Below are positions 52,611 to 54,651 of a stretch of DNA of 64,000 nucleotides, in pieces; the first letter of the stretch is position 1, and each line of letters opens with the position of its first letter. The notes beneath the pieces are model-generated. The model did no database searches. It saw only the letters and a program-made list of their open reading frames with translations, and was not told the origin of the DNA. Source of the DNA: a bacterium BMS3Bbin13 (lineage in GTDB: Bacteria > Pseudomonadota > Gammaproteobacteria > 21-64-14); the NCBI GenBank assembly GCA_002897735.1, contig BDTW01000042.1:44133-108132 (forward strand), read 5' to 3'. A program made the position numbers and the translations under genes.

Positions 52611-53131
52611 TTCCGCTATTCGACTACGCGCGGATCCCGCCCGCCTTTTCGTCGGGGCCGTGGCACGGATGCCCGCCGCCGTGTGACCGTTCGGTTCGGG
52701 CTTGGCGGGACTGTTCTCCGTCCCGGCATCTGCGTCGCCCCTCTCTGCGTCGTAAACCGCGAGGCCGGTATTCCACATCGCCGCCGCATACCAGCGCGGC
52801 GGAAAAAGGAGTCGAGAGAGGGGAAACAGCGCCCGGGCGCATAGGGCCGTCCGTGGCGCATTACAGGGGCGCCCTCCCGAGTATTCGCGGTCCCTTTGGG
52901 GGGCCGTCCGCCCGTTGGGCGGCCGAAGGCATTCTTTCTTCTATAATAATAAGCACCATATGAGCGGGAAATTGCGCAACCATGCCCGGGGGGCTTGACA
53001 TCCCAAAATTTATTTTCTAACCTTTACGTAAGATATATATACAGAGAGGCCCAATGGCCTGCGTTCGGCGGGATCTGTTTTCAGATACGGACGCAGGTGA
53101 TCGAAATCAAAGCGAAGAGGAGGGCGAAGGA
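52611..53131 (+). promoter_or_regulatory. Gene-free AT-rich leader of the dsrE2 cassette
   Basis: No gene is supported. From about 52930 the composition changes sharply to AT-rich. It contains a TATAAT at 52942-52947, a perfect TTGACA at 52995-53000, and a TTACGTAA palindrome at 53024-53031 followed by a run of TA repeats. The TTGACA has only a weak -10 (TAACCT) at 17 bp, as expected for MerR-controlled promoters with poor spacing. The MerR two genes downstream is the likely regulator. Confidence 0.45.
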
Positions 53132-53743
53132 ATGGCGACCTCACCGGAAAACATGCGGCGGGAACAGCTCGATTCATGGTTCGACCAGCGCCTGGGTGAG
53201 CGGCTTCCCGAAAAACTGAAGGAGATCGAGGCGGCGAAAACTCCTTCCATGACGATCATCGTCACCAAGGGCACGCTGGACTGGGCCTATCCACCGTTCA
53301 TTCTGGCTTCCACCGCCTCCGCGCTGGGCTGGGAGGTGTCCACATTTTTCACCTTCTACGGTCTGCTGCTGCTGAAGAAGGATCTCGGCACCACGCTCAG
53401 TCCGCTTGGCAATCCGGCCATGCCGATGAAGATGCCGTTCGGTCCCCGGTGGTTCCAGAACATCGAGTGGCCGATACCGAACCTGATCATGGCAAACGTC
53501 CCCGGCTTTGAGAAGTTTGCCACGGCCCTGATGAAGAAGACTTTCAAGAACAAGGGGGTGGCCACGGTCGAGGAACTGCGTCGGTTATGCCTGGAGGCGG
53601 GCGTGAAAATGATCGCCTGCCAGATGACGGTGGACGTGTTCGGTTACAGCCGGGATGACTTCATTCCCGAGGTGGCGGACTACGCGGGTGCGGCCAGTTT
53701 TCTGCCGGTCGCGCAAAAAAGCGACGTAACGCTGTTTATCTGA
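53132..53743 (+). CDS. dsrE2: DsrE2-type (DsrE/DsrF-like) sulfur-carrier-family protein
   Basis: A 203-residue protein of the DsrE2/peroxiredoxin-like group. TIIVTKGTLDWAYPPFILASTASALGWEVSTFFTFYGLLLLKK is the N-terminal core with a hydrophobic, possibly membrane-embedded helix; KGVATVEELRRLCLEAGVKMIACQMTVDVFGYSRDDF carries the conserved Cys in IACQMT, and the C-terminus reads KSDVTLFI. In sulfur oxidisers DsrE2 lies with tusA and rhodanese and is thought to move persulfide sulfur. Neither is present here. ATG at 53132 is preferred over the earlier Met because GAAGGA precedes it. First gene of a three-gene cassette. Confidence 0.88.
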   Translation: MATSPENMRREQLDSWFDQRLGERLPEKLKEIEAAKTPSMTIIVTKGTLDWAYPPFILASTASALGWEVSTFFTFYGLLLLKKDLGTTLSPLGNPAMPMKMPFGPRWFQNIEWPIPNLIMANVPGFEKFATALMKKTFKNKGVATVEELRRLCLEAGVKMIACQMTVDVFGYSRDDFIPEVADYAGAASFLPVAQKSDVTLFI

Positions 53744-53816
53744 TCCTTCAGTCGAATCACCCCCGGTGTGGCCGGGGGCCTACCTCCACTGAGTCAATAA
53801 ACACTCGGGTGACACC

Positions 53817-54125
53817 ATGAATATCACGAAACTGCCCATACGTGGAAAAGAACCGGACATCAGGGCGTTTGCCGAAATCGATCCGGAAAAATCGGGTCCG
53901 CAGCACGCCGCGGTCCTGATCCATACCAACGGCGCCCTTGACGAATCGGCCGCCCGGCATGTGATTCATAAGCTGAATCAGGTCGAGGGGGTTTCCGAAA
54001 CACGGTTCACCCTCGAAAAGGATCATCTGATCATGGTGGCCTATGACCAACATGCTGTAAAAGCGGTGCAGTTGCTGGAAAAGGTGAGGGAACTCGGACA
54101 TGAAGCACAGCTCGTCGGGCTGTAG
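53817..54125 (+). CDS. Small ferredoxin-fold (HMA-like) protein without CxxC
   Basis: A 102-residue protein. AAVLIHTNGALDESAARHVIHKLNQVEGVSETRFTLEKDHLIMVAYDQHAVKAVQLLEKVRELGHEAQLVGL follows the beta-alpha-beta-beta-alpha-beta order of heavy-metal-associated domains, but the metal-binding CxxC is replaced by TNGALDES. It has no cysteine, so it does not bind metal in the usual way; binding of a partner, such as DsrE2, is a guess. It is the middle gene of the cassette, 73 bp after dsrE2 and 10 bp before merR. Confidence 0.75.
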   Translation: MNITKLPIRGKEPDIRAFAEIDPEKSGPQHAAVLIHTNGALDESAARHVIHKLNQVEGVSETRFTLEKDHLIMVAYDQHAVKAVQLLEKVRELGHEAQLVGL

Positions 54126-54135
54126 AGGGACGCAC

Positions 54136-54651
54136 ATGCCGGGAAAACAGGAGATCAGTGCCGCCGACCGGAACGGACCCGACTATAAAATCGGCGAGGT
54201 CGCCGGGCTGCTGGATACGACTCCCCGAACATTGCGGTTCTACGAGGAACAGGGCATGTTGACGCCGTTCCGGACCGCCAGGGGGACGCGGCTCTATTCG
54301 CAAGAGGATATTGCGCGCCTGCGTGTCATTCAACATCTGGTGCGTCTCGATGTGCCCTTGCGCACCGTCCGCGAACTGGCCGTTGCCCGACCTGAAAGCC
54401 GAAGCGGAGACGAGGCCAGTCACAAGGTCTTCGCGTTGTTGAACGAACTCCGCCTGGATGTGGAAGAGAAGAAACGGGAATGTCAGGATGCGCTGCGGCA
54501 GATCTCCGCCGCCCTGCAACTCGTCGAGCAGTGTTTCGGATGCCGGAACAAGCCCACTTCCCGGGGCTGCAAAGGCTGCCCGGTGGAGGCGCAAACCGAT
54601 AAGTCGCGCCTGTTCCACCTGATTTTGGATCAGGGGAAAGCCATGAGATAA
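54136..54651 (+). CDS. MerR family regulator with C-terminal Cys cluster
   Basis: A 171-residue activator-repressor. The N-terminal winged HTH is YKIGEVAGLLDTTPRTLRFYEEQGMLTPFRTARGTRLYSQEDI; a dimerisation helix follows to about residue 130. The tail holds CFGCRNKPTSRGCKGCP, four cysteines in CxxC...CxxC pairing, typical of a metal, Fe-S or thiol sensor. It probably controls its own cassette (dsrE2, small protein, merR) from the odd promoter near 53.0 kb in response to sulfur, metal or redox signals. ATG at 54136 follows GAGGG. It converges with nifJ. Confidence 0.9.
   Translation: MPGKQEISAADRNGPDYKIGEVAGLLDTTPRTLRFYEEQGMLTPFRTARGTRLYSQEDIARLRVIQHLVRLDVPLRTVRELAVARPESRSGDEASHKVFALLNELRLDVEEKKRECQDALRQISAALQLVEQCFGCRNKPTSRGCKGCPVEAQTDKSRLFHLILDQGKAMR

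Follow-up and report, generated by a model that had tools for sequence, protein, structure and literature searches.

On the strength of sequence comparisons, the genes encoding DsrE2, a small HMA-like protein and a MerR-family regulator very probably form a MerR cassette that regulates itself, has a single promoter and uses interchangeable sulfur carriers. The three genes are co-directional (forward strand, 53132-54651) in the window, i.e. the whole 64-kb stretch of DNA analysed, which belongs to contig C42 of the draft genome G000 (2.69 Mb) of a gammaproteobacterium, a class assignment based on survey kinship labels and the taxonomy of matches. We regard the cassette as real and uncharacterised and as a variant on the MerR-operon theme. 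It is a good candidate for a unit, not described before, that responds to sulfur or redox state, and its most likely inducer is either sulfane sulfur or an Fe-S/redox signal bound by cysteines. The gene positions agree with those in the preliminary description, including the end at 54651, and the cis-acting part begins at about 53009, i.e. 5' of the start given there (table 1).

Table 1. Features of the cassette, with positions in the window.
Feature	Position	Strand	Basis
Candidate -35 element TTTATT, weak (3/6 to TTGACA)	53009..53014	+	Position relative to operator
Predicted operator of MerR, TTCTAACCTTTACGTAAGAT, occupying the 19-bp spacer	53015..53034	+	PWM and pattern searches
Candidate -10 element TATATA, sharing the palindrome's last base	53034..53039	+	19-bp spacing, sequence
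5' UTR stem-loop, arms CCTGCGTTCG / CGGACGCAGG, inner ATCTG-TTTT-CAGAT	53057..53098	+	Sequence, fold
dsrE2, encoding a sulfur carrier from the DsrE2 clade with an extended N-terminus	53132..53743	+	NF047629, PF13686, tree and Cys columns
Intercistronic GC-rich hairpin without T-run, not an intrinsic terminator	53760..53779	+	Sequence, fold
HMA-fold small protein without CxxC, conserved H36 and H70	53817..54125	+	Profile, AlphaFold2/Foldseek
MerR-family regulator, C-terminal CxxC-x8-CxxC	54136..54651	+	Pfam, alignment, AlphaFold2

Genomic setting of the cassette

The cassette stands out as an island of 58% GC, its three genes individually having 55-61% GC against approximately 69% in the flanks. 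The promoter is indeed AT-rich, as had been proposed, with about 52% GC at 52.9-53.25 kb against the same flanking value. The island appears to combine an HMA-like/MerR unit, partly of foreign origin, with a dsrE2 gene of the lineage's own type. Chance or mis-called open reading frames can be ruled out, as all three genes have relatives and conserved residues. The stem-loop in the predicted 5' UTR has 10-bp arms and a modest folding z-score of -1.85, and both this hairpin and the intercistronic one are weak compared with shuffled sequences; a general scan for intrinsic terminators gave nothing convincing and a search of Rfam gave no named RNA element.

The three proteins

The DsrE2 protein matches the curated NCBIfam model NF047629 over its full length (profile positions 5-159 of 159) and above its cut-off (212.4 vs 210 bits), and it also matches the Pfam family DrsE_2 (PF13686); the start of the gene is backed by a match to the N-terminus of its own paralogue. 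In an alignment of 26 sequences C163 occurs in all and C153 in 20. The host genome carries a second dsrE2 (73% to the cassette copy), which adjoins trpD-like and polA-like genes and is kept in the sister genome. The nearest relatives of the cassette gene are the dsrE2 genes of the genus itself (73-74% identity), and it groups with those two in the tree (support 92/82); neither the HMA-like gene nor the cassette MerR was matched in the sister genome. The statement that DsrE2 usually travels with TusA holds (tusA is present in 18 of the 25 DsrE2 loci examined), the cassette gene being an exception with no tusA matched within the 3.6-kb locus around it. The host genome nevertheless encodes five TusA proteins. 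At one locus (L152, G000:C25), tusA, DsrE3-like, lipoate-binding-protein-like (lbpA-like) and radical-SAM lipoate-synthase-like genes stand in a row, the latter families being assigned by eye. The same gene make-up characterises the sHdr-LbpA sulfur-oxidation pathway (PMC6067878, PMC11582611), and the locus is probably an sHdr-type sulfur-oxidation locus of the host genome.

The HMA-like protein (102 aa) is devoid of Cys altogether, which agrees with its initial portrayal as an HMA-like protein lacking CxxC. Its score against Pfam HMA is 16.5, with a cut-off of 24.8, and its HMA and CopZ matches all remain below cut-off; its family profile, however, matches the HMA domains of copper ATPases in the PDB. 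The AlphaFold2 model (pLDDT 86) has the HMA fold (beta-alpha-beta-beta-alpha-beta), and Foldseek aligns it with an HMA domain of ATP7B (TM 0.94) and with MerP (TM 0.90). About 30 relatives of roughly 75-120 aa, likewise without CxxC, are spread across the class, mostly standing alone; none of those tested passes the Pfam cut-off, and the family has no name in the libraries searched. Two histidines are conserved in the alignment, H36 in more than 90% of the sequences and H70 in all of them, and the strand order of the fold suggests that they should lie close together beside the place of the lost CxxC. Many small CxxC-less HMA-like proteins (L038-L066, e.g. L076:7274-7555 and L078:6871-7143) end in ...xHAxLxGL and have two conserved His. 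The contig scan with so short a protein was insensitive and gave one distant match.

The regulator matches Pfam MerR_1 (4.8e-20) and ends, as first noticed, in a CxxC...CxxC tail, specifically C133-x2-C136-x8-C145-x2-C148, with all four cysteines invariant in the 13 aligned sequences of the subfamily. AlphaFold2 predicts a long dimerisation helix (residues 91-133) with the four Cys at its end, and PDB matches agree with a MerR build. It is at the end of this long helix that MerR regulators bind their effectors. The best named NCBIfam models are ZntR and CadR, and the best PDB matches CadR and CueR, but the protein is below every NCBIfam equivalog cut-off: it scores 37-56 bits against the metal-sensor models (ZntR/CueR/CadR/MerR(Hg)), whose cut-offs are about 143-168. 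These scores and the Cys spacing rule out ZntR/CueR membership. Membership in SoxR is ruled out as well (32.1 vs a cut-off of 116.9; CX2CX8CX2C vs CX2CXCX5C in SoxR). The CxxC-x8-CxxC motif could as well hold a Zn ion or an Fe-S cluster.

A predicted operator shared by related cassettes

A palindrome of about 20 bp, ATCTTACGTTAACGTAAGAT, is found upstream of most cassettes and is perfect in genome G125. In MerR-activated promoters (CueR, ZntR, MerR) the operator lies in a 19-bp spacer between the -35 and -10 elements. This is the arrangement seen in G334, G133, G033 and G218 (L072-L075), where TTGACA directly precedes a palindrome that fills the 19-bp spacer, and the same geometry, TTTATT-19-TATATA, is predicted from the sequence upstream of the window cassette. 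A symmetric PWM, built from nine sites of other genomes with the window site excluded, gives the latter 28.6 bits, as against 7.7 for the best remaining site in the 64 kb; in 20,000 shuffles of the local region the local score was never attained. A search with an IUPAC pattern, which includes the window's own letters, had 0.00 matches expected in shuffles. The site agrees with the perfect palindrome of L071 at 16 of 20 positions, a value equalled by two of 2000 permuted palindromes in the same upstream 201 bp.

Within the 2.69-Mb host genome it is the sole site with up to three mismatches, by which a wider regulon is ruled out there. Elsewhere, additional pattern matches in AT-rich genomes do not exceed a reversed-pattern control, and G133 has an extra one-mismatch site upstream of an apparently unrelated ORF. 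Diverged copies with lower scores occur in G259 and G236, while G379 has a weak candidate alone. Since the palindrome is also present near MerR in G172 and G090, where the HMA-like gene is absent, it goes with the regulator rather than with the HMA-like protein. The operator, its 19-bp geometry and the single genomic site together support autoregulation of a single operon. Self-regulation, as put forward in the preliminary description, is thus borne out to the extent of a predicted operator, found upstream of homologous cassettes as well as of the window cassette.

Occurrence in other genomes

Our surveys were samples, comprising 369 genomes of the class and 399 of the phylum (about 770), in which other loci were delimited by simple ORF calls and several neighbours were named by eye. 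A lack of co-occurrence elsewhere had been set down beforehand as counting against a unit: a second dsrE2-HMA-merR trio was indeed not found in this sample, but the HMA-like/MerR pair recurs in eight families. The pair is adjacent in ten genomes of two classes (G000, G259, G148, G125, G334, G133, G033, G218 and G236, with G379 from the other class). A tusA gene lies between HMA-like gene and merR in two unrelated genomes, G334 and G133 (Pfam TusA, 1e-15 or better); the CPxP motif reads CSAP in these proteins, with the Cys kept. A sulfur carrier is absent from seven of the ten cassettes, and dsrE2 joins the pair once in the sample. The gene order is reversed in G236, the regulator of G379 has a related but rearranged Cys cluster, and in G125 a gene for a COX1-like membrane protein directly follows merR. 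Genus-mates of G133 lack the cassette-type MerR, i.e. its distribution is patchy. Outside these cassettes, a sigma54-activator-like gene, an intact DsrE2-family gene and a gene for a CxxC-less HMA-like protein stand in a row in G081 (L076:5547-7555).

Several further loci deserve mention. The G081 row represents a second regulator type accompanying a DsrE2/HMA-like pair. In G044 (L077:6923-7406) a broken dsrE2 with internal stops and an HMA-like gene are divergently oriented, and the same genome has intact dsrE2 copies at other places. In G178 (L044:624-1788) a CxxC-less HMA-like gene adjoins a persulfide-dioxygenase (ETHE1)-like gene, a family assigned by eye. In G172, G084 and G090 (L095, L097 and L098) the same Cys-rich MerR is found 5' of an unnamed 'ARGWK' protein of about 230-270 aa, which replaces the HMA-like protein; it has the signature GARGWK...TSVLIHDxLDH, is negative in Pfam and NCBIfam where tested, and is accompanied by the same operator type in G172 and G090. 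Spread by plasmids was considered and rejected: plasmids gave no match to the HMA-like protein and a single, distant one to the Cys-rich MerR over its full length, in Methylorubrum extorquens CM4. This plasmid gene (L068:4998-5657), missing from the plasmid gene table, encodes a Cys-rich MerR of the subfamily and is flanked by cobalamin and C1-transfer genes; a weak site resembling the operator lies at L068:4859.

Possible mechanism and the nature of the signal

We propose that a MerR dimer would bind the 20-bp palindrome in the over-long 19-bp spacer and that modification of the Cys loop at the end of the dimerisation helix (C133, C136, C145, C148) would make it untwist the promoter, whereupon dsrE2, the HMA-like gene and merR would be transcribed as one mRNA. 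The signal would most likely be reactive (sulfane) sulfur, which the carrier encoded in the operon itself (DsrE2, or TusA in the relatives) might pass on, and the CxxC-less HMA-like protein may be a docking or adaptor partner, not a metal chaperone. We give about an even chance to the general scheme, a self-regulated cassette in which the Cys4 loop, responding to a signal that is likely sulfane sulfur, switches on all three genes. Its full elaboration is put forward tentatively: a MerR-type sulfane-sulfur sensor with a loop charged by the carrier from its own operon, a metal-free docking partner of the HMA fold, and a one-promoter switch that moves horizontally.

Three points favour sulfane sulfur: TusA is the cargo twice and DsrE2 once, a DsrE2-family gene adjoins a CxxC-less HMA gene in G081 (a broken one in G044), and the ArsR-type SoxR/sHdrR regulators provide a precedent for carrier-linked sensing. 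The proposed scheme also draws on the five tusA genes of the host, including the one in the sHdr-like gene row described above, and on the persulfide-dioxygenase-like neighbour of an HMA-like gene in G178. Points against it are the single occurrence of dsrE2 with the pair, the seven cassettes devoid of any sulfur carrier, the weak -35 element and a Cys motif that would equally suit Zn or an Fe-S cluster. The main rival is an Fe-S or redox signal, with the four Cys holding an Fe-S cluster in a SoxR-like sensor of redox state, NO or iron, and DsrE2 or TusA serving sulfur supply or repair under stress. The position of the Cys-rich loop, as in SoxR, its four invariant Cys and the COX1-like gene directly downstream of merR in G125 would fit such a sensor; yet the cysteine spacing and the SoxR score given above speak against it, and superoxide-dismutase, fumarase or NO-reductase genes were not recognised as recurrent in the neighbourhoods examined. 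On balance we deem it unlikely, if still worth serious consideration.

The original suggestion of a sulfur, metal or redox response narrows towards sulfur or redox, given an HMA-like protein without the classical Cu/Zn chaperone site and tusA as cargo in two cassettes. A classical metal response is less likely, as the regulator fits none of the metal-sensor models and its partner lacks the CxxC metal site. A regulator of the Zn/Cd/Cu/Hg type, with the HMA-like protein and DsrE2 buffering or sequestering the metal, would agree with the HMA fold of the partner and with ZntR, CadR and CueR as best matches. These matches, however, are far below cut-off, CxxC is absent throughout the aligned HMA-like sequences, the Cys pattern differs from that of ZntR/CueR, and no efflux ATPase or transporter was recognised within the cassettes examined, all of which makes the idea improbable. 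Finally, dsrE2 may be a passenger, a paralogue inserted behind the MerR promoter and ahead of the HMA-like/MerR pair with no functional link to either. The single sighting of the trio, the affinity of the gene to the genus's own copies and the absence of the cassette from the sister genome can be read this way. Against it, dsrE2 is intact, keeps the invariant C163 and sits exactly downstream of the operator, and in other genomes carriers have independently become associated with the module or its HMA partner (TusA in two families, a DsrE2-like protein in G081); we hold this explanation to be very improbable.

Relation to known systems

For cytoplasmic sulfur sensing in sulfur-oxidising bacteria, the described sensors that we found are of the ArsR, CsoR and Fis types. 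Among the open-licence papers searched, none had DsrE2 and MerR together or described the trio, nor did we find a MerR-type sulfane-sulfur sensor in this literature; the word 'MerR' is absent from the review PMC9774590. If our preferred reading, sensing of sulfane sulfur, is true, the cassette would be a sulfur switch built on a protein family for which sulfur sensing is not known. A MerR subfamily with its own conserved operator, four invariant Cys and swappable carriers is a small, testable system, and it suggests what the widespread, unnamed HMA-like proteins without CxxC may do.

Several known systems resemble the cassette in part. With CadR, ZntR, CueR, NmlR and SoxR its regulator shares the DNA-binding domain, the long dimerisation helix and C-terminal effector Cys, as well as the operator inside a 19-bp spacer that is common to MerR-family activators; it differs from them by its CX2C-X8-CX2C loop and its own operator sequence, and the cassette differs from their operons in having no efflux or redox-defence cargo. 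The HMA-like protein is similar to the CopZ/MerP/HMA metallochaperones in fold and, weakly, in sequence, whereas their metal-binding CxxC is absent from it and its aligned relatives. The tusA-dsrE2 modules, including TetR-tusA-dsrE2 in Thiothrix and G016, likewise encode a DsrE2 with the active-site Cys, and some have an adjacent regulator of their own, but the cassette has the HMA-like protein in place of TusA and MerR in place of TetR. In Hyphomicrobium, the ArsR-type regulators SoxR and sHdrR detect sulfane sulfur by means of two Cys, which TusA may serve to load (PMC11582611). Cys-based sulfur sensing beside sulfur-transfer genes, as with ArsR-, CsoR- and Fis-type sensors (SoxR/sHdrR, SqrR, BigR, CstR, FisR; PMC9774590, PMC11582611), is what we propose for the cassette too, where the putative sensor belongs to a different protein family.
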